A stretch of 64,000 nt of DNA from Kiloniella spongiae (GTDB lineage: Bacteria > Pseudomonadota > Alphaproteobacteria > Kiloniellales > Kiloniellaceae): contig NZ_LAQL01000010.1 of the NCBI RefSeq assembly GCF_001026905.1, positions 62,001 to 126,000 on the forward strand. The letters are read 5' to 3'. Under the pieces are notes generated by a model. The model saw only the letters and a program-made list of their open reading frames with translations, was not told the origin of the DNA and did not search any database. This document shows positions 36,466 to 62,049 of the stretch, in pieces. A program made the position numbers and the translations under genes. The stretch's first letter is position 1, and the number at the start of each line of letters is the position of its first letter.

Positions 36466-39400
36466 ATGTCAGATTCAAACACACCCCGTAATTCCGGCGA
36501 CGCTACATCTGAAATCAAAGTTTTAGAGCAAGAACCACTTCTTGCTGTAGGCCAAGAAGCCACAGAACTCTCGATTGATTTACCGGCGGTAGGTACTTCC
36601 CAATCAATAACGGCACAAGCAGGACAACGTTTACAGTTAAACTTTGATGCAACCCAGGCTGCTGCTGTTGTTGACGGGAAAAATCTGGTTTTGAATTTTG
36701 ACCTTAATGGGGACGGCACACCAGAAAGTAGCATTGTCTTTGAAAATCTGGCGGGTGATTTTGGCGACGGAGAAGCTCCTGTTCTTGTTATTGACGGTAC
36801 AGAAGTTGCGGCAAGTCAATTGATCGGACTTGTGCTGGCTCAAGCAGGAGATCTACCTCTTGAAACAGCGGCTGGTGCTGGTGCCGGTCCTACAGGTGGT
36901 GGCGGTAGTGTCTACAGTGAAGATACTGGTAGCGTTATCGACTTATTGATTGCTCAGGGTGTAATTGGACCGACTGAACTGGATTTTGGCCTACTTGGTG
37001 GTATTGATGAGATTACAGACCCTGCAGAAGGGTCGTTTGATGTTAGCTTTATTACAACATTCACAGAGGTACCAGATTTTGAAGGCGGCATATCCGGTAC
37101 TTTTGCTGGTGGATTTGAGGATTGGTTGCCCAATCAAAATTTACCAGGCGGTGATTTAAATAAAGACGATAACCCTTTTGGCGGTGAAGCCGGGGAAGAC
37201 TCCCTTGAACAGTTCGCTGCTCCTATGCAGGTCGTCTTTACCTTTACACCCACTGACAACGAGACACTCGATTTTGTTGTTATGGACGCCTTACCAGACG
37301 GCGCCCGTTTATTTATTGGTGGTTCGGAACTAGGCAATGAATATACAGGTACCTTCCCTGCTGTGATTTCCCCTGATGACTTTGGTGATGTTTTTATCCT
37401 TCCCCCACCAGATTCAGATGAAGATATTATTGTATCTGGTACAGCAGTTATCACCGACCCAGATTCAGGTTTATCAGCCGTACTTCCCTATTCTGTTGAA
37501 GCCATTATTGATGCAGCAGCAGACATGCCATTGTTATCTCTGGGACGCGATGATGGCGGCGAAGGCGGCGAAGGTGGTGAACATGACTATTCTGATATCC
37601 AAATTAGAGAGCAAATCAAAGATGGACCTAGTGATGACGGCAATGAAGTCTTCTTGGATGGTGGTAAAAATGGTGTCATTGGCGAAGAGAGCATTATCAA
37701 GCTTCCAATCAATGCAGAGCTCTGTGATAAAGACGGCTCGGAAACACTAACACTTGTCCTTTCCGGTATTCCTGCCGGATTTACTATTAATGAAGACTGC
37801 ACAAAATTACCCGAAGGCTGGGAGATATTCGGACCAATTTCAACGGATGTATCTGATCCCACAAATGAAGAAGAAGACAATGAAGATCCGAATGGAACGG
37901 TTCAATATATTGTTCGTTACACAGGAGATCTTCCTGACCCAGACGATCCGGATCTTGATTCATCAGAAACAATTGACTTTACAATGTTTAGTGGATTGGT
38001 TGCGTTCAACACCAACGACTATACAACAACAGGCGTTGATGTTGAGGGCGGTGAAGGCGGAGAAATTCCGACATTACTAACGGACGAACAATATCCTTAC
38101 CCATCGCCCGATACAGAAGATGGTGGACGCTATGTCGAAGGCCCGACACATACAAATGGACCTGTTGTCATTACTGTCAGAGCCGTTGCAGAAGAGCAAG
38201 AAACAGATATCGGTACAGATGAGTTAACGCTGGAAAATAATACTGCCTTGGCAGAAAGCAGCTTTATCTTTGATATCCAGGAAGATACTCCCGAAATCGA
38301 CACAAAAATTGCCATTAGTATTGATGAGACTGATGGTGATCAAACCAACGCCGAAAAACGTGTAACAAATGATGTCGCAGGCGTTTCAGAAGCGCAAAGC
38401 CATCTAGCAACGATAATGAGCAACGATGGCGTCACGCCACCAGATGCAATCAGCCAAGGGTTCAGACCAATTAAAGATGCCCTGAATCTATTTACTGATG
38501 GATCAAATGACGAAGCCGATGGTTCGGACGGACCTTCTGATACTGATAGTGCTTCAAGCCCATCACTATCACCACCAGATGATTTAGAAGATATACGCTT
38601 CATTGACTATAACGGCCAATACAGCGGTGTTAATACAACTGATGGATCACCTATTTACCTCTATTCCTCTTCTTCGGATTTATCAGTCGTCTATGGCCGA
38701 ACTTCGGGTGTTAGTGGCGATTTAGCTTTTGTCGTAACCATCGGATCAGACTTGCTCAATGGTGAAAATGATATCGATATCTATATTGAGCAATACGAGT
38801 CATTACAGCATCCTGATACAAAGGATCATGACGAAACAATTAGCTTTAATCTCAAGTACTACGCCACAGACGATGAAGGTGACCAAAGTGAAATTGGGCG
38901 ACTGAAAATCAAAGTGGATGACGACGGTCCGGAAATTAGCGGTCACGAATTTCTCTGCGTCGATGAAACTGACTTTGATAACGGATCTGTCATTTCCGAC
39001 TTTGGACAGTTTGATACTTTTGATTTTGGTGCAGATGGCCCGGCAGCCGATGATATACATATTGATATGTTTTCTCTTGGCACGATCAGAACAGCACAAG
39101 GGAACCACCCGGTTAACACAAGCCAGACTGGCGACACCTTGATTGGTACCGCGAATGGTGAAGAAGTTTTCAGGTTTACCGTCAATCCAGATGGAACCTA
39201 TAACTACGAACAGTATGAGGCTTTGGAACACTGGAATCCCTATAGTCATAACGAACCTCTTGGGATGCTATTTACTGTTAAAATTAAAGACGGTGATGGC
39301 GATAAAGATTATGGAAAGGTTCTGCTAAAAGTTCTGGATGACGGTCCTGATATTGGTGGTCAGGAAATGGCAATGGTCGATGAGACTGACCTGAATACAA

Positions 39401-42400
39401 GCGCATCAATAAAAGATGGCGGTACTTTTGATATCTTTGATTTCGGTGCCGATGGACCACAAACAGATTATCCTTGGACACCTCATAACGATGCCATCAG
39501 AATTTACGCAAATACCAGTGGCATCACGACCTCAGAAACCGATACGCCAATTACAACATCACAAAGTGGCAATGTCCTTACCGGATGGGCCGCCGGTGAT
39601 GTGGCTTTCACCTTTACAGTTAATCCTGATGGAACCTATGAATACGAGCAGTTTATTGCTTTGGAACACCCGGATACAGAAGATCATAATGATCCGCTGC
39701 CCATGAAATTCCACGTCAAGCTTATTGACGGGGATTGGGATTTTGACTGGGGTTCTGTTGATGTCATTGTCAAGGATGATGGCCCATCGATTTCAGTCAA
39801 TCCTCCGAATGAATTTGTTCTCAATGGTAGCTTTGAGGATGGCCATACGCTAAGCGGGGCGAACTGGGACGTATTTGAAGATCTTAGTGATGGATCCTGG
39901 AGCAACGGTGGTGTTGGTCAACCCGGTTTTGAAATCCAGCACGGCAACGTAGCAGGGCCTGCACAACATGGTGATGCCTTGCTCGAGCTTGATGCGCATG
40001 AGAATTCAATTGCCCAGCAAGATATCTCTGGCATGACCGCAGGTGAAGACTATGTATTGACCTTCCACTATCGTCCGCGTGTTGATAACGGTACGGATAC
40101 GGATGATGTGGTTATCAAATGGAATGGTGTTACTGTTGAAGATGTCACCTCGACTGATGCCCCTGGTGGATGGATTAAGTTCACAGTTGTTGTGACCGCT
40201 GGTGCCGGTACCAATAATCTTGCCTTTGAAGGTGCCGGTACCAACGAAAGCTTGGGTGGATATATTGATAACGTCTCAATTACCCATGCCCTTTGTGTTG
40301 ATGAAACCAACCTTGATCAGGATGACAGCCTTGATTTCTCTGGGCGTTTTGCCAGTAGTTTCGGCGCAGATGGTCCTGGCAGCCTGACATATGATGTCTC
40401 AGCAACAGACGGAACAGATTCCGGGTTGGTAGATACTGCCACAGGTGATCCTGTGCTACTTTACACACAAGGCGGTGATGTCTATGGACGTGTTGGCGGA
40501 CCGGGTGGAGATGTGGTTTTCAAAGTATCCGTTGATGGTAGCGGGGTTGTTACACTGGACCAACAGCGTGCACTTGAACACCCAGATGCTGACAACCCAA
40601 ATGATGCAATAAGCTTGGCATCAGGTTTGATCAATCTCACCGGCAAAATTATCGATAGTGATGGTGATCATGCTGAAGCAGTTCTTGATCTTGGAACCTC
40701 GCTTTACTTCAAGGATGATGGGCCAGTCGCTCATGATGATGAAGAATGTGTCACCGAAGTTGAAAAGGACGCCCAGCCCCAAAATATCGGTATTGTTATG
40801 GACTTTAGTGGGTCAGTCAGCAATAGCGATCTTGCAACAGAAATTGCCAGTGTAAAAACGTTCATCCAAACGCTTTTTGCTTCCGGCGCAAGTGTTTCTG
40901 TAACCCTTGTGGCCTTTGGTGATAATGCCGCAAATCTTGGCACCTTTACTGATCTTGCTTCTGCCGAGGCTGCACTTGATGGAACCAGTCGTGGTGTCAT
41001 TGATTCTGGAGCCACAGATTATGAAGCCGCCATGGAGATGCTCTTTTCTGACAGTGGGGGCGATTTCGAATATGTTCCTGGTGCTAATAACCAGGTCTTC
41101 TTCCTCAGTGACGGTGAACAGAATGACGGGGCTTCGCCGTTAAGCAATGCATCTATCGTTTTAGATAGCGGCGGGAAAGCTGATCTCCTGGACGGTGATA
41201 TCGGCTTTACAGCCGTGGGTATAGGCGGCGTTCAACCTGCTGATTTTGTCAATTTCTTTGATGGCGGCGTGGTTGCCAATAATAGCGAAGTTCTGAATGC
41301 AGCAACCTTCGAAGATCTCGCTGATGTTCTGGTCGGTACAATCGGTTTGAGCAATAGCGTTAGCGGCAATGTTGTCAATAATGACGATGCCGGCGCAGAT
41401 GGTCTGGACCGCATTTGTGACATCGAGATTGAAGGCACAACCTTTAGTGTTGATGATGCAGGTGACCTTACCGGGCCAACGGTCGGCACTCCTTCTGCCA
41501 CTTATGACGATGGAAGCAAACTTCTAACGATCACAACGGCGAAAGGTACTTTGGAAATCTATCTTGATGATCAAGGTAGCAATTCAGCCGGTGACTATAC
41601 ATACACAAGTCTTCCATCAGTGATGCATGGTGCGCCCGGATCCGCAACAGATGATGAGGTAGAAGATATCTTTACCTATTCCATTCTGGATAATGATGGT
41701 GACAAATCATCAGCTGATTTGAAAATCCGTATCAAGGATGACGAACCTGAAGCCGTTGATGACAAGGTTACAACAGTAGCTGATGCAACCTCTGTTCCCC
41801 AAAATATTGCCATTGTAATTGATCGTAGTGGATCAATTGATAATACGGAGTATCAACAAGAACTGAACGCAATCCGTTCCTTTATCGCAACACTTGCTGA
41901 AGACGGCGACCCAAGCCAATTTGCATTCTCTATTGTTGCCTTTTCGGATAGCGGATCCAGCTTCGGCACCTATGTTTGGGATGGATCTGGTGATGATTTG
42001 AATGATTTTGACGAGATCGGCGGCTCTCGAAACCTTGATAATCTACTAACCACATCTGCCATTAATAATCAATCTGGTGTCACTGATTTCAATTCTGCAT
42101 TGAATGCTTTATTTGGAAATACTGATTTCCTAGGTAACGGCATCGCCAATGCCTCGAATCATCAGGATAAGATTTTCTTTCTCAGCGACGGAAAGGTTAA
42201 TGACGGCGGCACAACAATAACAGAGACAAATAACAACAATATTACAAATAATGATATTGATGTTATTCCCGTAGCGATTGGTGAAGGTGTGAGCCCTAAT
42301 AATTTCATTGATTTCTTTGGCACGGATATAGTTCCAAGTATTGCAAACGTACTTAGTGCTAGTGGGTTTACGGATCTAGCTGATGTTTTGATTGCAACAA

Positions 42401-43986
42401 TTGGTGCTGAAGCAACAGCCACAGGTAACCTTCTAACGAATGACATAGAAGGGGCCGATGGCTTCGGATCTCCTGTTGTCATTACAGAAATCGAACACAA
42501 CGGAGTAACATACACCGATTCAGGAGACGGAAGTACGGATGGCTTTATCAATTTGCCAACTGCAAGTGGTGGGGCATTAAAGGTTAATACCGGGACAGGT
42601 AATTATGAATATTCTTCCGGTGTTGTTAATGAAGATTTTGAAGAAATCTTTACCTACACAATTGTTGACGGAGATGGTGACCCCTCTTCTGCTGATTTGA
42701 AGGTCTGTGTCAAGGAGCCAGTACCACCTGTGGCAACTGATGATCTTGTTTTAACGAATGATCTTTCTAGTGATCCCTTATCCATTGCCAAAGCAGCACT
42801 CTTGATAAATGACAACTTTATGGATACACCAAGCCCAGAACCAGATTTCATTAACCTTAATGGACATGGTTGGAATGGTGTTTCCATGGAATCAGCCGAT
42901 GTTCTATTTGACTTTTCTCGATCTGGGAATTCGGACAGTCACTTCCATTATGATCTAGAACAGAATGGTCTTGAATCCCTAGATGATGCAAGAGTGGATG
43001 TAAAACGCATCAGCAATAATCGAGGAAATGAAACAGATACTGTGAATGGTGGTAACGGTAATGAAATACTCATTGGTCGTGACACCATGGAAATCGTTAC
43101 TCGTAGGGTAATTGCCAAAGCGAGAGGTGAAGGTAGTAGCCGTAATAATGATTTCCTTCGTTTCCACTTGGCCGCTGGCGCTTCCGGTGAACATATACAG
43201 CAAATTGTAATCGATTTACGCGGTGGCAGTGATACCAATGCTTATTTTGATCCTGCGGGTTCAATAGGCAGCAGTGATTATGGCCCAACCTTTAATAATA
43301 GCTCTGGTCTCTCTTCTGGGGATGTTACTTTTTCCCCAACGAATGCAGCAAGCTCAACCCTTACAATGACTTTCGATAGTAACTCTTTCGGGGTTGGAGA
43401 TTGGTTTGATTTCAATATTGATATCGATAGGCTTAGTGGCAATGATGGCGATGACTTTGGCGATGGCGGTGTTACCTTTACTGTTACCTGGAGTGACGGA
43501 ACAACCTCAACGGGTGTTTATGATCGCTTAGGTAGAAGTGATAATTCTGAAGGCGAAGCCATTTCAACAGCAGTAGTCCCAGCGGATGATAATCTGTACG
43601 GCAATGGCGGTGATGACTTCTTGGATGGACGTGCCGGTAATGATCTGCTCGTTGGTGGAACCGGATCAGATATACTGACAGGCGGCACCGGGGCGGATAC
43701 TTTCCTCTTCTTCGGGCAAAATGTTGGCACTGATGTTGATACCATCACGGACTATGACAAAGCCGAAGGCGATATTCTGGATATCAGTGACCTGATTGCC
43801 TTTGATGACAACACAGATGTAGTTGCAAACTTTGTTCGGGCCACAGATACAGGGTCAACTACATCACTGGAAATCTCCAATGATGGTGTGACCTATACCG
43901 AAGTGGCCGTCATGGAAAACATTGATGCAACAGATATCCTGACCGTTGTTCTGGACAATGACGAACATATGATTGTCGTTGGATAA
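36466..43986 (+). CDS. Giant LapA-like RTX adhesin with two VWA domains
   Basis: This 2506-residue surface protein has no Sec signal. Residues 1-133 look like an N-terminal retention module, followed by TAAG at 134-137 and a Gly-rich linker. Then come repeated extracellular beta-domains with (V/I)DET motifs, near 619, 832, 972 and 1277 (DUF5801-like), and a jelly-roll-like insert (about 1116-1270, beginning NGSFEDG). There are two von Willebrand A domains with MIDAS DFSGS (from about 1438) and DRSGS (from about 1778). RTX repeats (GNGGDDFLDGRAGNDLL, from about 2374) end in a type I secretion signal. It should be exported by a type I system, not in this window. A strong GAGGAGG precedes the ATG. 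Confidence 0.9.
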   Translation: MSDSNTPRNSGDATSEIKVLEQEPLLAVGQEATELSIDLPAVGTSQSITAQAGQRLQLNFDATQAAAVVDGKNLVLNFDLNGDGTPESSIVFENLAGDFGDGEAPVLVIDGTEVAASQLIGLVLAQAGDLPLETAAGAGAGPTGGGGSVYSEDTGSVIDLLIAQGVIGPTELDFGLLGGIDEITDPAEGSFDVSFITTFTEVPDFEGGISGTFAGGFEDWLPNQNLPGGDLNKDDNPFGGEAGEDSLEQFAAPMQVVFTFTPTDNETLDFVVMDALPDGARLFIGGSELGNEYTGTFPAVISPDDFGDVFILPPPDSDEDIIVSGTAVITDPDSGLSAVLPYSVEAIIDAAADMPLLSLGRDDGGEGGEGGEHDYSDIQIREQIKDGPSDDGNEVFLDGGKNGVIGEESIIKLPINAELCDKDGSETLTLVLSGIPAGFTINEDCTKLPEGWEIFGPISTDVSDPTNEEEDNEDPNGTVQYIVRYTGDLPDPDDPDLDSSETIDFTMFSGLVAFNTNDYTTTGVDVEGGEGGEIPTLLTDEQYPYPSPDTEDGGRYVEGPTHTNGPVVITVRAVAEEQETDIGTDELTLENNTALAESSFIFDIQEDTPEIDTKIAISIDETDGDQTNAEKRVTNDVAGVSEAQSHLATIMSNDGVTPPDAISQGFRPIKDALNLFTDGSNDEADGSDGPSDTDSASSPSLSPPDDLEDIRFIDYNGQYSGVNTTDGSPIYLYSSSSDLSVVYGRTSGVSGDLAFVVTIGSDLLNGENDIDIYIEQYESLQHPDTKDHDETISFNLKYYATDDEGDQSEIGRLKIKVDDDGPEISGHEFLCVDETDFDNGSVISDFGQFDTFDFGADGPAADDIHIDMFSLGTIRTAQGNHPVNTSQTGDTLIGTANGEEVFRFTVNPDGTYNYEQYEALEHWNPYSHNEPLGMLFTVKIKDGDGDKDYGKVLLKVLDDGPDIGGQEMAMVDETDLNTSASIKDGGTFDIFDFGADGPQTDYPWTPHNDAIRIYANTSGITTSETDTPITTSQSGNVLTGWAAGDVAFTFTVNPDGTYEYEQFIALEHPDTEDHNDPLPMKFHVKLIDGDWDFDWGSVDVIVKDDGPSISVNPPNEFVLNGSFEDGHTLSGANWDVFEDLSDGSWSNGGVGQPGFEIQHGNVAGPAQHGDALLELDAHENSIAQQDISGMTAGEDYVLTFHYRPRVDNGTDTDDVVIKWNGVTVEDVTSTDAPGGWIKFTVVVTAGAGTNNLAFEGAGTNESLGGYIDNVSITHALCVDETNLDQDDSLDFSGRFASSFGADGPGSLTYDVSATDGTDSGLVDTATGDPVLLYTQGGDVYGRVGGPGGDVVFKVSVDGSGVVTLDQQRALEHPDADNPNDAISLASGLINLTGKIIDSDGDHAEAVLDLGTSLYFKDDGPVAHDDEECVTEVEKDAQPQNIGIVMDFSGSVSNSDLATEIASVKTFIQTLFASGASVSVTLVAFGDNAANLGTFTDLASAEAALDGTSRGVIDSGATDYEAAMEMLFSDSGGDFEYVPGANNQVFFLSDGEQNDGASPLSNASIVLDSGGKADLLDGDIGFTAVGIGGVQPADFVNFFDGGVVANNSEVLNAATFEDLADVLVGTIGLSNSVSGNVVNNDDAGADGLDRICDIEIEGTTFSVDDAGDLTGPTVGTPSATYDDGSKLLTITTAKGTLEIYLDDQGSNSAGDYTYTSLPSVMHGAPGSATDDEVEDIFTYSILDNDGDKSSADLKIRIKDDEPEAVDDKVTTVADATSVPQNIAIVIDRSGSIDNTEYQQELNAIRSFIATLAEDGDPSQFAFSIVAFSDSGSSFGTYVWDGSGDDLNDFDEIGGSRNLDNLLTTSAINNQSGVTDFNSALNALFGNTDFLGNGIANASNHQDKIFFLSDGKVNDGGTTITETNNNNITNNDIDVIPVAIGEGVSPNNFIDFFGTDIVPSIANVLSASGFTDLADVLIATIGAEATATGNLLTNDIEGADGFGSPVVITEIEHNGVTYTDSGDGSTDGFINLPTASGGALKVNTGTGNYEYSSGVVNEDFEEIFTYTIVDGDGDPSSADLKVCVKEPVPPVATDDLVLTNDLSSDPLSIAKAALLINDNFMDTPSPEPDFINLNGHGWNGVSMESADVLFDFSRSGNSDSHFHYDLEQNGLESLDDARVDVKRISNNRGNETDTVNGGNGNEILIGRDTMEIVTRRVIAKARGEGSSRNNDFLRFHLAAGASGEHIQQIVIDLRGGSDTNAYFDPAGSIGSSDYGPTFNNSSGLSSGDVTFSPTNAASSTLTMTFDSNSFGVGDWFDFNIDIDRLSGNDGDDFGDGGVTFTVTWSDGTTSTGVYDRLGRSDNSEGEAISTAVVPADDNLYGNGGDDFLDGRAGNDLLVGGTGSDILTGGTGADTFLFFGQNVGTDVDTITDYDKAEGDILDISDLIAFDDNTDVVANFVRATDTGSTTSLEISNDGVTYTEVAVMENIDATDILTVVLDNDEHMIVVG

Positions 43987-45042: not shown

Positions 45043-46593
45043 TTAACAAGTTCCTTTAAGTAATCCTGCACCATATACAGGATCTGGCCCGGGAGTACCG
45101 AGGTCAATTAATGAAAAAGATAATGCGCGCGATAAAACTTCGCGGGAAATTTTTGGGTTGTTTTTCAGAATAAGCGCAGCCACGGCCAAAGCATGGGGCG
45201 TTGCGAAGGATGTGCCTGATACATAGGCTCCTTTATTATCGGGAGTAGCAGCCCAGATATCCACACCCGGGGCTGCAAAATCAATGAAATCGCCTTGATT
45301 GGCGTCGCGGTAAATCTTTTGGCGTGAATCAATCGCAGTAACAGAGAAAACCCCGTCCAAGGCTGCGGGATAACTTTCAGGAGCTTCAGGCCCCTGATTG
45401 CCTGCGCTCGAGAAAACAATAGCTCCTTTCTCTAGGGACAGAACAAACCCTTTGTTAAGTACTCTGTTAGAAGTTGCTGTGCTCAAAGAAACATTAATCA
45501 AGCGGACCTGATTAGAAAGCAGCCAATCCAGCCCTTGTAAAACAGCAACAGTACTGGCCAGTTGATCACCAGAATGCGAGAGCCTCAAAACCACAGCGTT
45601 GTATAACGTTGTCCCGGGGATCAAACCTTGATAGCCCTGTACCGGATCATTTCCAATAAGAATAGATCCGATTGAAGTTGCATGGCTGAGATCAATGGTT
45701 TGAGTACCTAAGAAACTGCGTGATACAATCGACTGCCCAACAAAAGCAATATGGTGTTGATCAATCGCCCCATCCAATAAACCAATCGGGAAACCAAGCT
45801 GTGTATTCTGACACCCGCTATCATGCCCCCAACCAATTGCCTTCTGAGCATATAAACGTGGTTTGGCAGAGGACGTGAGGTCATTATTAAAATCAATCTC
45901 GGCATCCGGGAAAACAGCTCTGAGTTCCTGAATAACAATTGCTGCATTAGCCGTGCGTGTCTGAATGAGAACCGACTGCAAAGCATCTAGATTATACACA
46001 TCAACAACGGGTAAACCGCGTTTTTGCAACTCTGAGCGCACCGGATTTTCCTGGGTATTCTCCACAAGAATAATAACATCCTGCTCAGCAGAACTATCGC
46101 GAGAAGCAACCTTATTTGACGGACAAATTCGAACACTCAACCCGGTTTTATCGAACGTATGTTCTTTATTCTGTTGATAGAACACAAGATCGTAAGCCGT
46201 ATTAAACTCAATAATATTTTTTGGCAGGTAACTGGAAATCCTCGTCTGGGTTTTATTTAAAATTTCCAGTTCGATCAACTTGCCTGCATTATTCAATCCA
46301 AGACGGTTATTCTTCGGAATCTGATCCAGGTTCTTACCTTGAATGGTGAGTATCGTTCCTGGTCGAACGCAATTCGCCCTGAGGCCTGTAAAAATAATCT
46401 CATCCGGTTGTAGGATCTCAGGTGAACGATCATCGGGGTTGGGCGTTCCCGTCGCCCTTGCGCCTGCCGGTGTTGGTGCGGTTCCAGGTAATGTACCCGC
46501 AGGATCAACAGATGTTTGCGCAGGAAGATATTTTGGCAAACCGACTGAAAGCAGAAGGAAGCCAAGGAAAGTTAGAGAATGGCGTAACATCAC
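45043..46593 (-). CDS. Secreted S8 subtilisin-like protease with TIG-like domain
   Basis: This 516-residue protein has a signal peptide (about 1-25), a Pro-rich linker, an IPT/TIG-like beta domain (about 58-157), a prodomain-like segment (about 170-236), and an S8 domain. The catalytic triad D274 (IGLLDGAID), H304 (LSHATSI) and S462 (SGTSFATPH) is intact, with the oxyanion Asn N399 (SSAGNQG). It should act in the periplasm or outside. The start overlaps the anti-sigma stop by four bases, so it is translated together with the sigma/anti-sigma pair. A role in cutting the anti-sigma factor or its targets is inference from this coupling. Confidence 0.85.
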   Translation of the reverse strand: MMLRHSLTFLGFLLLSVGLPKYLPAQTSVDPAGTLPGTAPTPAGARATGTPNPDDRSPEILQPDEIIFTGLRANCVRPGTILTIQGKNLDQIPKNNRLGLNNAGKLIELEILNKTQTRISSYLPKNIIEFNTAYDLVFYQQNKEHTFDKTGLSVRICPSNKVASRDSSAEQDVIILVENTQENPVRSELQKRGLPVVDVYNLDALQSVLIQTRTANAAIVIQELRAVFPDAEIDFNNDLTSSAKPRLYAQKAIGWGHDSGCQNTQLGFPIGLLDGAIDQHHIAFVGQSIVSRSFLGTQTIDLSHATSIGSILIGNDPVQGYQGLIPGTTLYNAVVLRLSHSGDQLASTVAVLQGLDWLLSNQVRLINVSLSTATSNRVLNKGFVLSLEKGAIVFSSAGNQGPEAPESYPAALDGVFSVTAIDSRQKIYRDANQGDFIDFAAPGVDIWAATPDNKGAYVSGTSFATPHALAVAALILKNNPKISREVLSRALSFSLIDLGTPGPDPVYGAGLLKGTC

Positions 46594-47207
46594 TTCCCAC
46601 CACTTTCCCCGCCGTCTCGTTGTACGGTTTCTACCAGATTTTTATGAGCCCTAAGTTTTGAGATAACGGCTTCTGGGTCTTTTGGTACGACAAGTTTATA
46701 AACGCCCAGTGCAGATGGTCCGTCAACAATACGAGCATCGACAGCCAACAAAAGCTCGCGGATATTTTCTTCCTGTGCCTCGGGCACAAAAGTAACCGAG
46801 AGAACCGGGCCGCGAATATGAGTGACATTGCCACCACTGGCCGCAACCAAATCATTATTCTGTTGCCAAAGCGGGACGACATAAGCCGTTTGGACAAGCA
46901 ACATTATGCAGGCCGCAATTGTTGCAATCCGCCATATACCGCTTTTCACGTTATCATTTTGCGGAATTTTTTGTGATAGAGTGCTTTTTTCTTTCGCAAG
47001 ATCCCGCTGTAGCCGTTTTAGACCAAACTCTCCCGGAGATACGCCAAGGTCCTGATTTAGCACCTCGTCTCTTATACTTTTCAGAAAAGTACATTCGTCG
47101 CGAAGAGCTTCATCTTTGGCCAAAGCATTCTTGACAGTTTCGAGCTCTTCGCCCTCAAGGCTGCCATTTACATAAAACGGCAAAAGCTCTTCAATTTCCT
47201 TTTTCAT
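46590..47207 (-). CDS. Membrane anti-sigma factor with protease-prodomain-like periplasmic end
   Basis: Starting at the ATG ending 47207 (GGGAGG upstream), this 205-residue protein has a cytosolic N-terminus resembling anti-sigma domains (LLPFYVNGSLEGEELETVKNAL) but no HxxxCxxC zinc motif. A single membrane helix follows at about 91-114. The periplasmic part at about 136-197 (LSVTFVPEAQEENIRELLLAV, then IVDGPSALGVYKLVVP) looks like the inhibitor-I9/subtilase prodomain fold. It lies between the sigma and S8 protease genes with overlaps on each side. It likely holds the sigma factor at the membrane until a periplasmic signal arrives. Confidence 0.75.
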   Translation of the reverse strand: MKKEIEELLPFYVNGSLEGEELETVKNALAKDEALRDECTFLKSIRDEVLNQDLGVSPGEFGLKRLQRDLAKEKSTLSQKIPQNDNVKSGIWRIATIAACIMLLVQTAYVVPLWQQNNDLVAASGGNVTHIRGPVLSVTFVPEAQEENIRELLLAVDARIVDGPSALGVYKLVVPKDPEAVISKLRAHKNLVETVQRDGGESGGK

Positions 47208-47209
47208 GT

Positions 47210-47764
47210 TCAGCCTCCCATACGGTTGGACAGGCAACGTTTCATCGCCTGTTTGGCATGGAACATACGGGTCTTAACGGTGTTTTCCGGACAGTCCACA
47301 ATCAGCGCAATCTCTGAATAGGGAAGATCTTGGAAAAATGCCAGTTGCATCACAGCGCGTTGTACTGCCTTTAGTGTATCAAGACAAAACTTGATATGAT
47401 CACTTTTTTCAGCCGTCAAAAGACACGCCATTGCATCAGGACTATCATCCGCAGTTTCCGGAAAGTTGTCACTATCCATTGGTATGTCTGTTCTTTTACG
47501 CATCCGATCCACCGTCTTGTAGTACGCTATTCCAAATAGCCAGGTTGATACTTTAGAACGCCCTTCAAAGGTTTCAGCTTTGCGCCAAACCTCTAAAAAG
47601 GTTTCGTTTAGTATGTCGGCTGCTTCGAATGAATCGTTCAATTTTGATTTAATAAAATGATACAAACGTTTTTCAAACAGATTATAAAAATCAGCAAAGG
47701 CGGTTTCATCGCCTTTGCTGACACGTTTTAGAAGAGAAAATGCTGTATCGTTTTCTGTCATCAA
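47210..47764 (-). CDS. ECF-family RNA polymerase sigma factor
   Basis: This 184-residue protein has sigma region 2 (about 30-92, AADILNETFLEVWRKAETFEGRSKVSTWLFGIA) and region 4 (about 130-180, LPYSEIALIVDCPENTVKTRMFHAKQAM). It lacks regions 1 and 3, as usual for ECF factors. It precedes its probable anti-sigma gene by 2 bases and follows the secreted protein gene by 10 bases. I do not see a classical GGAAC promoter before the operon, so its target promoters are unknown. Confidence 0.9.
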   Translation of the reverse strand: MMTENDTAFSLLKRVSKGDETAFADFYNLFEKRLYHFIKSKLNDSFEAADILNETFLEVWRKAETFEGRSKVSTWLFGIAYYKTVDRMRKRTDIPMDSDNFPETADDSPDAMACLLTAEKSDHIKFCLDTLKAVQRAVMQLAFFQDLPYSEIALIVDCPENTVKTRMFHAKQAMKRCLSNRMGG

Positions 47765-47774
47765 ATAAAGATCT

Positions 47775-48968
47775 CTATGGCATATATATCAATTGACGGG
47801 GCGAAGACCCGATAACACGGCCTTCTTTATCAAAAGCACGTAATCGCCAGTCATAGCTTTCACCAGGCGTCAAATTATCCAAAGAAAAAGCGGAAAGTTT
47901 AAGCTTTAGATCCTTCGCGGAGACAACTTTCCCTGAAACCACTTTGCTGTGGCCCGGATTGAATATTTCAACCTGATAGGCAAGAGCACCGGGAATATTT
48001 TCCCACGCAAAAACCGTATCCTGACTAACCCTTGCACCATTTCCGGGGCTGAGTGTTGTCAGATTATCTTCCGGTCTATTGGTTGTACCTTCAAGAACAA
48101 AGTATCTCAACACAGGAAGTTCGGCGATACCATCGGCATCTTCGACGCTGAAAGTCAGCAAATAGAGGCCGTTTTTGGCTGTTGGCAAGGCCGGACTTAC
48201 TATTCTTGTTCGTCCCTGGCCAGAGCTAACAACCTGTTGACGCACAACTTGCAGGATACGCCCACGTGCACTGCCAAGGCTTGCAGTTGGATCAATAATT
48301 CGCCACTCACCTTTCAAAAGCCCGCTACTACGGAAATTTATTTCTGCAATGGCTCTTCTTGTATCGCCCTTTGCGATCACATCGGTTCTGGCGTCATTGT
48401 CGAAACGCAGATCAATACGATTAATGCTGAGTGCACCCCCTTGACCTGAACTTGAAAAAACAGAAAGTCGCGCTAAACCTGTCGTTTGCGTATCCGTAAA
48501 AATTCTGGATATCAAAACAGATCCGGCGGGGGCTTCGGCTATTTTTCGGGCCAAGGCCGGAGAAATTGAGAGAACCTCGCTAAAGCGTAGTGTTTCACTT
48601 TGCGGAGGACTCAGAGTTGATTGCTTAAGCAAACTACCACCAAGTGTGGCGACATTCGTACCGTTAATTTGCAAAACGGCATTTGCTGAGCTGACAGGAA
48701 CAGTTGATGGGCCAGTTGGCTCAAACCTTGTAACATTCCATGTCAATGATATAGCAGACGCCCCCTTCACATTAACATTTGCGCGTTGTGGCGAAACAGT
48801 AACCGAACTCACATTGGCTTCGGCAACTATAGGCACAGCTAGTCCTGCCCCGGATATGACACCCGAAACCAGAACCGCCTTAATAGCTAAGCGAAAATGG
48901 TGCTTTAACGCGCAGAACCATGTAGGCCTGATACTCTGTTTCATTTTGAGCACTATCTGTGTTTCCAT
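47775..48968 (-). CDS. Secreted beta-rich protein with Fn3-like C-terminus
   Basis: The 397-residue product has a long signal sequence (n-region about 28 residues, then AIKAVLVSGVISGAGLAVPIVAEA). Its beta-rich domains end in a fibronectin-III-like repeat (about 310-395: FAWENIPGALAYQVEIF and LTPGESYDWRLRAFD). GGAGG lies seven bases before the first ATG (48968), so the gene truly begins inside the end of the outer-membrane-barrel gene, an 89-base overlap. Its function is not recognised; as second gene of the barrel-sigma-protease operon it may be a partner of the barrel. Confidence 0.75.
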   Translation of the reverse strand: METQIVLKMKQSIRPTWFCALKHHFRLAIKAVLVSGVISGAGLAVPIVAEANVSSVTVSPQRANVNVKGASAISLTWNVTRFEPTGPSTVPVSSANAVLQINGTNVATLGGSLLKQSTLSPPQSETLRFSEVLSISPALARKIAEAPAGSVLISRIFTDTQTTGLARLSVFSSSGQGGALSINRIDLRFDNDARTDVIAKGDTRRAIAEINFRSSGLLKGEWRIIDPTASLGSARGRILQVVRQQVVSSGQGRTRIVSPALPTAKNGLYLLTFSVEDADGIAELPVLRYFVLEGTTNRPEDNLTTLSPGNGARVSQDTVFAWENIPGALAYQVEIFNPGHSKVVSGKVVSAKDLKLKLSAFSLDNLTPGESYDWRLRAFDKEGRVIGSSPRQLIYMP

Positions 48969-50937
48969 TGAATTCCTCCATTGATCCTCTCAGGGCCAAT
49001 GCCAAACCTGGGCGATTGGTGCGAGGTCGAAGGAAAGTCCATTCTACCTCGCTATTAACGATATGACTATCAGATGAGTCGCCGCTACCGTTCGCAAGGT
49101 TCAAATTATAATCAATATTTAAGTCAACTTTATCCGGAACAAGCTCTGCTGTCGCCCCCAGATAGAGGTTTGTACTAAAGCTGTTTTTATTTGTATCAAG
49201 ATCCTCAAACACCCCGAACTGCGTGCCGCCATTAACATCCAGTCTGTCAGAAACAATCCACCCAACATTAAAACCTGTCAGATTGTTAACTGTGTCACTT
49301 GATACATTGGTAAAATCATCAAAACGGGAATAGCTATGGGATGCAGACCAATACCAAGCATCATAGTTAGCACCGCCACCCAGTGTAATAGAAGACGATA
49401 GATTATCCGTATCACCGCCATCATATCCAGATGGTGTTTTAACACGCCCCAAGCTGGCTAGATAACTGTTCATAAAAATATAGGGTGTTCCCAGCCATTC
49501 TGTTGATCCCGTTTGTTGATCAAAGGAATAGTTCAAACCAAAATCAATACTTTCCAAACGATCTGTTGGAACATTTGCGAGATCATCAACGTTATTGGTT
49601 TCATGTAATGCATAGAGGTTCGCGGATAAAGCACCCCAATAGAGGTTTGTATAGGCAGAATAAGCATCGCGGTCAGAAACCAGTCCCGGATTGGCCAAGC
49701 TTTCAAAGAAAGTATCAACGCGGTCATACCCAAAGCCAACGTCAATATCCAATGCGTCATCCCATACAACTGGCGCTTCTTCAAACAGACCATGTTCAAT
49801 CAAAAACGAAATAGCATCACTGCTATCTTTTGGTGCATCCCCATTATCACCATCCTGATCAAACAGGGCGTGAGCGTATTGTGCTTTTAAACGGGTTCTA
49901 TTTTGGCCAAAGCTTTTTTCCAAACCGACGCCCCATCCAGAACCAGAGGCAGCACTATCTAGATCAGAAAGGCCAATGCCACTTCCCTCACCCAAACCGT
50001 CGTAGTAAGTACCGGTTAATTTCAATGCATCCACATCAGTTGAAAATGGCTTTACAGCCAGACTAACGCCTTTCAGGCGGTTGTCTGTACTGTTAAGACC
50101 AGTCAGATCTGCGGCTCCTGAAACGGACTCTGTACCAAAAGCAAAACCCTGCGCCTCTACCCTGCTATCACTTGTACCAAGTCGTGCGGAAACACCACGA
50201 CGATAAAAATCTGAAACAAGAAGAGTTTCCAACCCCGTATCATGGTGGCCGAGAGAAAAACCTCCGGCTAAGGTATCCCCTTGATAATCGGCGTTTATAT
50301 CATATTCCCCCAAATCGACTGCACGTTCAGTCTGGGCAAAATCAACATCACTTTGCACAAGGTAATTTGCATGACCATCCACGGTCCATTTCCCGGCAGA
50401 GAAACCCGTGTTGATATCACCACTCCCCGATAAGGTTGAGCGATTAGTCTCATGCCCGATATTTTGCTGCACAACACGTCGACTGAATTCTGTTAAGGTA
50501 TCAGCACGAAAATAGGCAGAGCGAAGTAATCGTTCTGCCATTTCAATTTCCGGGGTATTTTCATTTAAATCTGAGACATTGCCAACAGGAGCAGCATTAG
50601 TAACATTAAAAGTCCATTGTTGCCTAACCTTTGATGTACCATCAGGGTTCAGCGTTACCAATTTCAGTGTATGTTCATTTCCATCCAGTGCTTGAAGCGG
50701 CTTGTAGATAAAATCCACGCCATCAAGTGAAAGCAGCGATGTGATATCAATCCCATCCAGTTCTACACCAAGCTGAGTCAGTGTTATCACATCCAGATCA
50801 TCAGGAAGATCAATGACTATCTTTGCATCAGGTGCGTCAGGAGGTGTAAAATTTGCGGTCCAATCTGCCAAAGTTGGTTGAACGTATAAAAGCGGCAAAA
50901 CCATTGCCGCTACTAAAGTCCTATAATCATAACGCAT
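48880..50937 (-). CDS. Outer-membrane beta-barrel protein
   Basis: From the ATG ending at 50937 (MRYDYRTLVAAM, signal peptide to about PTLADW), the product is about 685 residues long. It has a beta-rich N-terminal domain (about 24-150) and then many amphipathic strands with alternating polar/hydrophobic residues and acidic turns (GDINTGFSAGKWTVDGHANYL, IDFGLNYSFD). It ends in FSLSY with a terminal aromatic, the typical barrel signal. An open frame extends to 51033, but the signal peptide fixes the inner start. It is first in the operon leading to the sigma factor, so its own regulation matters to the whole unit. Confidence 0.75.
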   Translation of the reverse strand: MRYDYRTLVAAMVLPLLYVQPTLADWTANFTPPDAPDAKIVIDLPDDLDVITLTQLGVELDGIDITSLLSLDGVDFIYKPLQALDGNEHTLKLVTLNPDGTSKVRQQWTFNVTNAAPVGNVSDLNENTPEIEMAERLLRSAYFRADTLTEFSRRVVQQNIGHETNRSTLSGSGDINTGFSAGKWTVDGHANYLVQSDVDFAQTERAVDLGEYDINADYQGDTLAGGFSLGHHDTGLETLLVSDFYRRGVSARLGTSDSRVEAQGFAFGTESVSGAADLTGLNSTDNRLKGVSLAVKPFSTDVDALKLTGTYYDGLGEGSGIGLSDLDSAASGSGWGVGLEKSFGQNRTRLKAQYAHALFDQDGDNGDAPKDSSDAISFLIEHGLFEEAPVVWDDALDIDVGFGYDRVDTFFESLANPGLVSDRDAYSAYTNLYWGALSANLYALHETNNVDDLANVPTDRLESIDFGLNYSFDQQTGSTEWLGTPYIFMNSYLASLGRVKTPSGYDGGDTDNLSSSITLGGGANYDAWYWSASHSYSRFDDFTNVSSDTVNNLTGFNVGWIVSDRLDVNGGTQFGVFEDLDTNKNSFSTNLYLGATAELVPDKVDLNIDYNLNLANGSGDSSDSHIVNSEVEWTFLRPRTNRPGLALALRGSMEEFNGNTDSAQNETEYQAYMVLRVKAPFSLSY

Positions 50938-51043
50938 CTTTTTTTTAATTTTCAAACACACGCCCGATTTTCCCCAAGGCAGACTTCGTACAATTTTACA
51001 CCAAGATACTATAGAAATCAGTATTTTGAGCAATCATCCAAAG

Positions 51044-51059
51044 TGTATCAATTGTATCA
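51044..51059 (-). promoter_or_regulatory. TGATACA tandem element before the OMP/sigma operon
   Basis: On the minus strand TGATACA-AT-TGATACA, a perfect direct repeat with nine-base period, lies 107 bases upstream of the barrel start. Closely related elements in the same orientation to the gene occur at 52725-52740, 54693-54708 and 59492-59507. Confidence 0.6.
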
Positions 51060-51145
51060 GTTAAGATTGAATGTACTATTAACCACAAGGATAAAAGAGT
51101 AGCAGAACCTTATTCTAGGCCCTGCCACTCGCTGAGATCCTAATT

Positions 51146-52492
51146 TTATTCAGGAGTCTGGATTTTCAAACGTTTCGGCCTTTGTGTTTTGGGCTCTGCC
51201 TTACCCAAAGGACCTCGTTGAGGTTTTGTTTGCAGGATTGGCTTAACCATTGGTTGATTTGCATTATCCTGACTTTGATAGCCACCCGCTTTAGCTCCAC
51301 CAGTATTCACAGTTACCTGTGGCGTACAGCGATGCTTGAAGGTCGCAGAACCAAACTCTGTCCATGGTCCATAACTATCGCTATTTTGATCTTTAAGCTG
51401 AGCCTCAATAGTCATCGTATGTTCATAGGTTTTGTTAATAGTCGCCCACCACTTGAATTGATGATGATTGTACATTTTATCAATCAAAGGATAGTCAAAA
51501 TCAAAGTGCCTATTTATTTGGTTGGCTGAATCATAACTGCCCAGATAAACCTGCGGAAGCACGAAGTTCCCTTCACTGTTTTTCACACCGATCTTAAAAC
51601 GTACAGTTCCTTTACCTGCCCCTTTATAGTTCACACGGATTTTAGGATCAGGCGTTCCTTCTGTACATTTTCCAATGTGATGAGGCATATTTGGCTGGAA
51701 AGTTGCCTGATTTAAAAGCAACGACTGATTGTTATTGTATTGCGGTTGATTTTGTTGTCCTAACTGTACATTTAGAAGGGGCTTATCAGTAACCGCAGGA
51801 TCACCTTTATATTTCACTTGGATAGTGAAGTTTTTAGTTTCAAACCCAGCTTTCCATGGGCTTTGACCAGGGTAAATGTATTTTCCGCACCATCCCGCAA
51901 TAGAAACAGGTCTTTGCAGGACTATTTCCTGATCATTTTTGTAAAAGCTTGCCTTCGTCCCGCCTCCTTGTATGTGAGCTTGCAACTTTTTATTGATTTC
52001 TTCCAATGGATCAACACGAACGACCGGATGACCATTCTTAATTTGGTTGAGAGGAACTATGAAACTATCATCACCATAAGTGCCCTCGGTTATCCACTTC
52101 CCTAAGCCACTTCGGGTTTTATTAACAACATCGTAATTGCTTTTATACAAAGCAGCATTCTCGTTGATGTCCTCACTAAACATACTAAGAGGACCAAAAT
52201 AAATTTTAGCTACTTTAAAGCTAATTTTTTTATCATCACCACATTGAACAAAGCCATCTGCTTCGATTTCAATGGATGATTCCTGTACTTGTAAATTTAC
52301 GTTACTTGCCAATTTATTTGCTGAAGTATTTTTCACATTAATAACCGCAGCATATCCCGGAAAACTTACATCAACATTTTGTACATATTCTGAATTCCCA
52401 CTGGATGCTGCATAAACAGCATTAGAAGCTATTGCACTGACACCAAGAGCTGCGGCACTTGCTCCTAGGAATATTTTTTTCAGCTTATTCAT
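51146..52492 (-). CDS. Secreted protein, paralog of the neighbouring gene
   Basis: This 448-residue exported protein has a signal peptide (MNKLKKIFLG to about VYAASS). Two halves share beta-rich features: IYFGPLSMF, FIVPLNQIKNGHPVVRVDPLEEINKKLQ, FTIQVKYKGDP and a C-terminal TFKHRC. A Pro/Gln/Lys-rich tail (about 400-448) follows. It is clearly paralogous to the product starting at 53834. I do not know the family; conserved cysteines (QCGDD, GWCGK, GKCTEG, HRC) suggest disulfide bonds. A TGATACA-type element lies about 233 bases upstream. Confidence 0.75.
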   Translation of the reverse strand: MNKLKKIFLGASAAALGVSAIASNAVYAASSGNSEYVQNVDVSFPGYAAVINVKNTSANKLASNVNLQVQESSIEIEADGFVQCGDDKKISFKVAKIYFGPLSMFSEDINENAALYKSNYDVVNKTRSGLGKWITEGTYGDDSFIVPLNQIKNGHPVVRVDPLEEINKKLQAHIQGGGTKASFYKNDQEIVLQRPVSIAGWCGKYIYPGQSPWKAGFETKNFTIQVKYKGDPAVTDKPLLNVQLGQQNQPQYNNNQSLLLNQATFQPNMPHHIGKCTEGTPDPKIRVNYKGAGKGTVRFKIGVKNSEGNFVLPQVYLGSYDSANQINRHFDFDYPLIDKMYNHHQFKWWATINKTYEHTMTIEAQLKDQNSDSYGPWTEFGSATFKHRCTPQVTVNTGGAKAGGYQSQDNANQPMVKPILQTKPQRGPLGKAEPKTQRPKRLKIQTPE

Positions 52493-52850: not shown

Positions 52851-53834
52851 TTAAGATAATTGCGTCATAAAAGATCCCTGACCACCCCTGTGCAACATAT
52901 GCGCGCCCAAAGGATAAAGAATTTCAGTAGCAATTGTTAATGGTATTTCCGAGTTATGAGGTATTATTTGAGAACCAGCAATAGTTTGCTCATTTTGTAG
53001 TAAAACAAACCGAATGGCCCCTATACCAACTGCTGTATAGGAAAACCTGACTGGACTGGTTGTCTCGGCATGACAAACACCAGAATACATTAAGGATGGT
53101 TGAAATATCGACACATCTGTCAGCTTTAAGAATGACTTATTAAAATTCGCTATTTGTCGGTCCAGTGACTTCGAGCCAGAAAAATTTTGATCCCCCTTAT
53201 ACCGAATAACAATATTAATAGTTTCAGTATCATAACCAGAAAATCTCTCTCCTTTACTTTCACACTCTGTAATCAGTGTAATAGCCCTCGAGAGTATAAT
53301 TTCATGACTATCCTGATAAAAATTCTCAAATGTCTTTCCCTCTTCTAAATACCCCAACAGCTTTTTTTGCATCAGCTCCTTCACATCAACACGCAAAGAA
53401 GAATGACCATTTGAAATATTTGATAATGGAACTCGAAACACTTGCGGATCAGAACTATACTTCGTCTCCCATTCGGAAGTTGACGCATTCCATTCATTAA
53501 GATGTGGAGGATATGTTTCCCCATATAATATGCGGTCAAAAGTACCAAAATAAATTTCCGTATTTTCTGGAACTATTTTCGCATCAATAGAACATTTTAC
53601 ATAACCATCAGCCAATAGCTCCAGATAGGGAGGCACTGTCAAAAACTCTATATTATCAGAGCCATCAGAACGATTAACCTGAAGCACGATATTATCTGAT
53701 CTTAGTTCCAGATTGACCGCTTTAACAAAACCAGAGCTTTCTTCGGCACCAGCAGAAGCATTCATCATCAAAACAAGAACTGTTAATGACAGCCTGACAA
53801 AGTATTTGAAAGGATTGCGGCTACTGTTCGACAT
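52851..53834 (-). CDS. Truncated secreted paralog (C-terminus lost by frameshift)
   Basis: This 327-residue protein has a signal peptide (to about NASAGAEE) and runs parallel to the 448-residue neighbour: IYFGTFDRIL, FRVPLSNISNGHSSLRVDVKELMQKKL, FYQDSHEIILSRAITL, INIVIRYKGD and SIFQPSLMYSGVC. It ends early as SFMTQLS, while the following bases encode the homologous end in another frame with an extra stop. It is either a decaying gene or affected by an assembly indel, perhaps in the CCCC run at about 52883. It starts six bases after the VOC gene on the same strand, so they may be co-transcribed. Confidence 0.65.
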   Translation of the reverse strand: MSNSSRNPFKYFVRLSLTVLVLMMNASAGAEESSGFVKAVNLELRSDNIVLQVNRSDGSDNIEFLTVPPYLELLADGYVKCSIDAKIVPENTEIYFGTFDRILYGETYPPHLNEWNASTSEWETKYSSDPQVFRVPLSNISNGHSSLRVDVKELMQKKLLGYLEEGKTFENFYQDSHEIILSRAITLITECESKGERFSGYDTETINIVIRYKGDQNFSGSKSLDRQIANFNKSFLKLTDVSIFQPSLMYSGVCHAETTSPVRFSYTAVGIGAIRFVLLQNEQTIAGSQIIPHNSEIPLTIATEILYPLGAHMLHRGGQGSFMTQLS

Positions 53835-61805: not shown

Positions 61806-62049
61806 TACAGCTTCTAACACCCATGTTATTTAATTTATTCGTGATTAGAACGTTCGCATTTAACATAATTTCACACGGCAAAACTTACTGATCGTTCTAC
61901 ATACAAACATTGTATAAAAGATTAAGAAGCATATATAAAGATAAGGAATTAGAAGCAATCTAGATTGCTTTTTCTTTAAAGTTGTTTAGCTTTATTAAAC
62001 AGTGACATAATTAGTACTTGTACGATTTATTGATGAATAAAAATCTCTG

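Follow-up and report, generated by a model that had tools for sequence, protein, structure and literature searches.

A membrane anti-sigma factor ending in a subtilase-prodomain-like domain beside an S8 protease gene in Kiloniella spongiae

The outer part of a membrane anti-sigma factor of Kiloniella spongiae resembles the inhibitory prodomain of the S8 (subtilase) protease encoded next to it, which suggests a gene switch that detects its own protease and is probably also cleaved by it. The window is the whole stretch of DNA that was analysed (64,000 nucleotides, positions 62,001 to 126,000 of contig NZ_LAQL01000010.1, assembly GCF_001026905.1), and the coordinates below are positions of this window. 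An ECF sigma factor, the membrane anti-sigma factor and the secreted S8 protease lie there head to tail on the minus strand, and the features are given below with the basis of each assignment.

47210..47764, minus strand: ECF sigma factor, 184 aa (Sigma70_r2 3.7e-13 and Sigma70_r4_2 1.6e-12)
46590..47207, minus strand: membrane anti-sigma factor, 205 aa (open reading frame; family profile leading to ChrR in the PDB)
46974..47207, minus strand: anti-sigma domain, residues 1-78, helical, without zinc motif (AlphaFold2 model; zf-HC2 family matches)
46863..46937, minus strand: membrane helix, residues 91-115 (hydrophobic stretch and predicted helix)
46836..46850, minus strand: juxtamembrane linker motif L-V-A-A-S, residues 120-124, putative cleavage site (low pLDDT; shared motif)
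46617..46814, minus strand: I9/subtilase-prodomain-like periplasmic domain, residues 132-197 (AlphaFold2, structural matches, PF22148)
45043..46593, minus strand: secreted S8 (subtilase) protease, 516 aa (Peptidase_S8 1.5e-23)
46126..46395, minus strand: N-terminal all-beta domain of the protease, perhaps IPT/TIG-like, residues 67-156 (strands of the model; TIG)
45889..46083, minus strand: the protease's own cis prodomain, residues 171-235 (fold of the model; pro-subtilisin matches)
47775..48968, minus strand: exported protein upstream of sigma, conserved neighbour in Kiloniella-type loci (weak fn3-like match)
48880..51033, minus strand: large exported protein, conserved neighbour in Kiloniella-type loci (locus comparison)

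Both ECF regions are present in the sigma protein in the Pfam scan, and its top NCBIfam match is PRK12515, under the cut-off of that model. The initial annotation had given the anti-sigma gene the coordinates 46590-47207, which proved correct, as the minus strand translates there to 205 aa and a stop. It had also described the next gene as an S8 protease with an intact triad and a four-base overlap; this gene was recovered as the open reading frame 45043-46593 with a GTG start that gives the four bases (the ATG one codon on would leave an overlap of one base), and the triad D274, H304 and S462 is invariant in 28 aligned sequences, that of the window included. Since the protease and anti-sigma genes overlap, they are probably co-transcribed, as judged from the reading frames. 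The same neighbours, with the anti-sigma factor at 86-88% identity, were found in three Kiloniella records, and a full-length site-2 protease gene is present in the genome. The strict pattern of an ECF26-like promoter (GGAATA...GT) occurred in none of 16 stretches upstream of the operon, and a loose pattern gave one match in the same stretches, which is chance level.

The regions 47775-52492 and 52854-53834, upstream of sigma, encode exported proteins with few or no Pfam matches; the product of 48880..51033 gave zero matches in the Pfam scan at E up to 1, and that of 52854-53834 is similar to that of 51146-52492. The genes at 47775-48968 and 48880-51033 accompany the operon in some families beyond the order too. 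Directly downstream of the operon and on the opposite strand, 36466-43986 encodes a 2506-aa protein with DUF5801 repeats, two VWA stretches and an RTX repeat.

The N-terminal domain, the single membrane helix and the adjoining sigma gene place the protein among the membrane anti-sigma factors with the ASD fold. The zinc-binding anti-sigma (ZAS) factors carry an HxxxCxxC zinc motif, and the present protein does not belong to them, its Cys and His residues being limited to C39, C100, H130 and H188. The zf-HC2 profile matched 28 of 43 members of the anti-sigma family at E up to 1, the window protein taken alone lying under the zf-HC2 cut-off. When the family profile was searched against the PDB, ChrR (3.9e-4) and chain 3hug (8.2e-4), which we take to be a second membrane anti-sigma chain, were both found via the N-terminal half, and DdvA (0.045), RsiW (0.1) and RseA (0.73) followed further down. 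A phmmer search of the anti-sigma factor against the PDB sequences gave chance-level matches and nothing else.

A membrane helix followed by a periplasmic segment at about 136-197 had been proposed from the letters, and the AlphaFold2 model agrees, with a helix at 91-115, a low-confidence stretch and then a folded domain at 135-197. This domain has the order beta-alpha-beta-beta-alpha-beta, which matches solved prodomains of the I9/subtilase type, with pLDDT of 88-96 by blocks of ten. Structure prediction of the C-terminal region had been suggested as a check on the prodomain likeness, and its matches in the PDB are led by the trans inhibitor POIA1 (top Foldseek match) and the subtilisin prodomain; the lowest Foldseek E-value is 4.2e-3, with unrelated ferredoxin-like folds close behind, within one Z unit. 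The inhibitor-I9 look was upheld by the predicted fold and by the family. Pfam's Fervidolysin prodomain model, PF22148, finds 15 of the 43 family members at E up to 1, the strongest at 6e-6; the window protein taken singly is sub-threshold (E 0.011; 16.6 bits, the cut-off being 21), so that its I9 likeness rests on the family matches and the fold. Among four Kiloniella-type sequences the periplasmic domain is 93% conserved and the anti-sigma domain 83%. Classical prodomains have a C-terminal tail which enters the active site of the protease; many homologues of the present domain stop directly after the last strand, without such a tail.

The protease model comprises a beta-rich N-terminal domain, a cis prodomain at 171-235 and a subtilase core, and export of the protein is predicted from its hydrophobic N-terminus. 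TIG matches 2 of the 28 aligned S8 sequences (best 0.0064). The cis prodomain again has the fold beta-alpha-beta-beta-alpha-beta (pLDDT 89-98 by blocks of ten), the top structural matches of the whole-chain model are unprocessed pro-subtilisins, and a prodomain-like segment was seen by eye ahead of the catalytic domain in 35 aligned S8 proteins. A split proenzyme, of which the S8 protein would be the missing half, was considered and is ruled out by this complete cis prodomain; the domain on the anti-sigma factor would thus be a second copy and not a missing half. In one alignment the column of the oxyanion asparagine holds Ala or Pro in the S8 proteins of L103, L106, L110 and L111, which may be a misalignment.

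The two prodomain-like segments were then compared as profiles. The profile of the anti-sigma domain (137 rows) aligned with that of the S8 cis prodomain (68 rows) over 67 columns in hhalign, with E 2.7e-4, score 22.5 and probability 42%, and the controls scored up to 9.9 (20 column-shuffled templates), 6.2 (one reversed template) and up to 14.5 (six catalytic slices). This gives modest but consistent support, from sequence profiles, to a shared descent of the anti-sigma domain and the protease cis prodomain.

Homologues of the anti-sigma factor were sampled from the order (61 genomes), the class (385), the phylum (398) and the class of a second centre (369), and these samples overlap. Out of 83 loci taken forward, 80 had a domain match; outside this count are L081, L251 and L252 without domain match (the last two have S8) and rows lying mostly on the anti-sigma domain (one from the order, one from the class and nine from the phylum search). 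The class search of the second centre gave 71 rows, of which 20 served as controls and 23 were left out, including G1135, possibly reaching into the domain. An S8 match lies within 0.9 kb of the anti-sigma match in 69 of the 80 domain-bearing genes, 67 of them on the same strand, and 30 of 34 families have domain-bearing genes with an S8 neighbour. As the whole genome (4.47 Mb) has two S8 matches and S8 recurs in 69 of the 80, the pairing is more than chance. Among the control loci, whose anti-sigma factors have no domain match, S8 was found in 2 of 20 (L261 and L267); in these two, and also in L263, which is without S8, a C-terminal stretch of similar pattern is visible by eye and profile support is absent. 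The order of genes varies, the protease preceding the others in L097, L107 and L121 (a plasmid locus) and the anti-sigma gene having the opposite orientation in L087 and L105, and despite this rearrangement the sigma, anti-sigma and protease genes remain neighbours.

It had been asked whether an S8 gene is always next to such anti-sigma factors. This holds for most and not for all of them, as S8 is absent near 11 of the 80 domain-bearing genes. Two of these loci (L236 and L250) end at or near a contig edge, a caspase-like gene adjoins the anti-sigma gene in L108 and L249 and lies 2.9 kb off in L109, and in L241, L242, L245 and L254 the sigma/anti-sigma pair stands alone. The remaining two, L079 and L080, are extra anti-sigma copies lacking a sigma gene; such copies were seen in three related genomes (L079:6959-7675, L080:7073-7786 and L081:7805-8113, the domain missing in L081), with no sigma or protease match near them within stretches of 16 kb.

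The converse linkage was surveyed from the protease side. The S8 profile was applied to 30 loci and matched in 29; a divergent sigma/anti-sigma pair is present in 17 of the 29, and the other 12 lack a sigma match within the few kb covered (L171-L173, L175, L177, L187, L191 and L194-L198). None of the 17 anti-sigma factors of the divergent loci (L119:7426-10287, L174, L176, L178-L186, L188-L190, L192 and L193) has a domain match at E up to 0.1, and S8 linkage was therefore rejected as a proof of the domain. Both kinds of anti-sigma factor occur together in ten genomes of the order. S8 linkage hence extends beyond the anti-sigma factors with a prodomain-like end, and a single cell can offer both anti-sigma designs for comparison. 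No natural fusion of an anti-sigma factor with S8 came to notice along the way.

The divergent arrangement has a described relative. In the parts of PMC6180224 that were available, rpoE6 of Sinorhizobium meliloti is divergent from a serine protease gene, this arrangement is said to be widely conserved in ECF26, the linked protease is an RpoE6 target and rises on RpoE6 overexpression, and the mechanism of activation of the ECF26 sigma factors of S. meliloti is termed hypothetical. In the S. meliloti rpoE6-ecfR6 locus we found that the protease SMa0142 is an S8 protein and that the C-terminus of EcfR6 has no prodomain match. The operon of the window shares with these loci the close grouping of an ECF sigma factor and a membrane anti-sigma factor with an S8 protease of broadly similar type (PMC6180224, in part); it differs from them in its co-directional protease and prodomain-like C-terminus, the RpoE6 loci having a divergent protease and an RsiW-like anti-sigma C-terminus. 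For ECF54, the available parts of PMC8999054 describe subtilase and CHAT proteins among the conserved neighbours, propose proteolytic control and present the group without an anti-sigma factor, whereas the window locus has a membrane anti-sigma factor with a prodomain-like domain.

The stretch ahead of the domain carries a further shared feature. An unguided motif search of this stretch in 66 S8-linked homologues scored 309, against at most 241 in eight shuffles, and in 112 S8-linked sequences the motif [Y/F/L]-x-[T/A/P]-[L/A]-[S/G/A] holds 10.5 bits per sequence, six shuffles reaching 6.5 at the most. This resembles what we take to be the subtilase preference at P4 to P1'. The linker has low pLDDT in the model and is probably flexible there, yet it is conserved in sequence. 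We also considered the linker as a copy of the pro-mature junction of the protease; the cognate likeness (p 0.006) was nearly equalled by reversed linkers (0.009), is not order-specific and leaves this reading unproven. Among the other controls, one of ten shuffles gave p 0.032 and the segment preceding the linker 0.33.

In one lineage a caspase-like protease stands in place of S8, and the linker and the domain end of the anti-sigma factor differ accordingly. The gene in L108:5953-6756 is a Peptidase_C14 (Pfam 1.8e-39), and a profile built from it finds caspase-like genes in L249:6081-7475, L277, L279, L281, L289-L291, L295, L299-L301 and L304, the matches in L299 (4e-5), L300 (2e-3) and L301 (2e-8) being weak or partial ones at the edges of short loci. 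Two added searches brought in 56 new loci with the domain, of which 44 have S8, 11 a caspase-like gene and one neither. An expectation of Arg/Lys in caspase-linked linkers had been set from three loci before the 11 further ones were examined, and the pattern hydrophobic-Arg-small was found in 10 of these 11 and in 10 of the 44 S8-linked loci of the same searches. Within one mixed family, the subtilase-like linker pattern is present in 1 of 13 caspase-linked and 13 of 14 S8-linked members, hydrophobic-Arg-small in 12 of 13 and 4 of 14, and an Ala/Val-Glu end of the domain in 2 of 13 and 13 of 14, respectively. The Glu of this end presumably corresponds to one which caps a subtilase helix in prodomain complexes, and the end is kept in 6 of 7 anti-sigma genes with neither protease nearby.

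The unguided motif search on the 14 caspase-linked linkers did not pick the Arg motif, and Arg or Lys anywhere in the linker is found in 94 of 112 S8-linked and in all 14 caspase-linked sequences. On a sigma tree which included 10 of the 14 caspase-linked loci, the caspase switch amounts to only two to three changes, and one S8-linked row lies inside the caspase-linked group; the linker and end counts are therefore not independent, and the p-values of the contrast are overstated, also because the exact patterns were worded after the data were seen. The S8-linked row is L298, whose sigma factor sits inside the caspase-linked group with low support on an inner branch and whose linker reads V-V-P-L-G as in some other S8-linked loci, and it is possible that it switched back from caspase to S8.

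The reading we prefer, though at somewhat less than even confidence, is that the sigma factor, the membrane anti-sigma factor and the secreted subtilase form one signalling unit in which the protease docks on the domain, cuts the linker and frees the sigma factor. The subtilase would shed its own cis prodomain and so free the surface that had held it, and the prodomain mimic of the anti-sigma factor would dock on this surface of the mature enzyme. Docking would place the active site at the membrane-side linker with its subtilase-like motif L-V-A-A-S, and a cut there would be site 1; an RseP-type site-2 protease would then complete the destruction of the anti-sigma factor and release sigma. The input signal would be the quantity of mature, unoccupied protease in the periplasm. 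This reading is supported by the fold, the PF22148 family match, the hhalign similarity, the S8 linkage, the linker motif and the caspase contrast, and further by the higher conservation of the domain, the site-2 protease gene and the precedent of RsiV as given in the available parts of PMC5014341. Against it stand the cis prodomain, which would occupy the same surface of the protease, the 11 domain-bearing genes without S8, the 17 S8 loci beside domain-less pairs, the linker's likeness to the pro-mature junction, which is not order-specific, and the Foldseek value with its ferredoxin-like neighbours; the caspase contrast is itself limited by few changes on the tree, post-hoc patterns, three weak assignments and a Glu end mostly kept where neither protease is near. 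The initial annotation had proposed that the domain could bind the protease in trans and link protease state to sigma release. Of its expectations the prodomain-like fold and the S8 linkage were borne out, binding in trans stays a candidate role, and homologues without a linked S8, which it had named as refuting the idea, do occur. It mentioned neither the cis prodomain of the protease nor the S8 genes beside pairs whose anti-sigma factor is domain-less.

Inhibition alone is the strongest rival of this reading, although we regard it as unlikely: the anti-sigma factor would park and silence the protease at the inner membrane, another site-1 protease would answer a separate signal, and the freed sigma factor and protease would act jointly. 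Trans inhibition is the activity of I9 domains such as POIA1, and POIA1 being the top Foldseek match speaks for such a role, as does RsiV, which likewise inhibits its enzyme (PMC5014341, in part). Against it, the many homologues that end after the last strand would have no tail for the active site, and the linker motif resembles a subtilase substrate. A bound protease might instead protect or stabilise the anti-sigma factor, so that abundant protease turns sigma off; the overlap of the two genes, probably co-transcribed, and the S. meliloti protease as a target of its linked sigma factor (PMC6180224, in part) are in line with such feedback, which we judge a little less likely still since it leaves the conserved substrate-like linker, varying with the class of the protease, unexplained.

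Rather improbable, in our estimate, is a generic ferredoxin-like sensor whose I9 likeness is fortuitous, S8 being simply a member of the regulon that has stayed close by. Folds of the ferredoxin-like kind are widespread, unrelated chains come within one Z unit and 17 S8 loci adjoin pairs whose anti-sigma factor is domain-less, but the profile similarity to the protease prodomain exceeds its controls, PF22148 matches, and the Ala/Val-Glu end mostly accompanies S8 and seldom caspase. That the domain assists the folding of the protease in trans seems very improbable, as the protease owns a complete prodomain and the domain is retained in caspase-linked homologues, even if propeptides act as chaperone and inhibitor in mesophilic bacterial subtilases according to the available parts of PMC10580911. 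Returning to docking and cleavage, the caspase-linked loci would extend them to a class of protease-sensing anti-sigma factors, in which the domain mimics the prodomain of the partner and docks the partner, the tether is the substrate, and a caspase-like protease has taken the place of the subtilase as partner while tether and docking end changed to match; this wider claim is more doubtful than the mechanism for the subtilase pair.

Among known systems, membrane anti-sigma factors of the RseA/DegS type are destroyed by proteolysis in two steps, and the present case is like them in that the anti-sigma factor sits in the membrane and the genome encodes a site-2 protease; it would differ in that the proposed site-1 protease is a subtilase encoded in the operon and docking via a mimic of its own prodomain. 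POIA1, a stand-alone I9 inhibitor, and the subtilisin prodomains share the predicted fold and strand order, but the domain here is the C-terminal part of an anti-sigma factor, with its N-terminal side anchored to the membrane. In RsiV, site 1 is cut by signal peptidase. The available parts of PMC5014341 describe RsiV of Bacillus subtilis as an anti-sigma factor which is both receptor and inhibitor of lysozyme, binding of which triggers the site-1 cleavage. By analogy the anti-sigma factor here may bind an enzyme through its outer domain and then be cut, the candidate ligand being the co-encoded protease and not lysozyme; the comparison concerns the proposed working only. The Pfam scan of the window gave no match to the RsiV-type family. 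The known part is thus the anti-sigma factor as an enzyme-binding receptor, and the new part is the co-encoded protease as its partner. The initial annotation knew of no standard description for the arrangement. For the domain this agrees with the matches listed by a full-text search (mostly titles and abstract beginnings, the 2021 ECF reclassification, 10.1093/nar/gkaa1229, lying outside them), among which a prodomain-like anti-sigma domain is undescribed; the linkage of ECF26 with S8 is already in print in the available parts of PMC6180224.

For many ECF sigma factors the mode of activation is not known. In this system the sensor domain itself points to its probable ligand, so that the signal can be tested in many Pseudomonadota. 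If the proposed working is true, it would extend the idea of RsiV from lysozyme to the cell's own protease and would put the prodomain fold to a new use outside a protease, in a transcription switch which reads active periplasmic protease directly.
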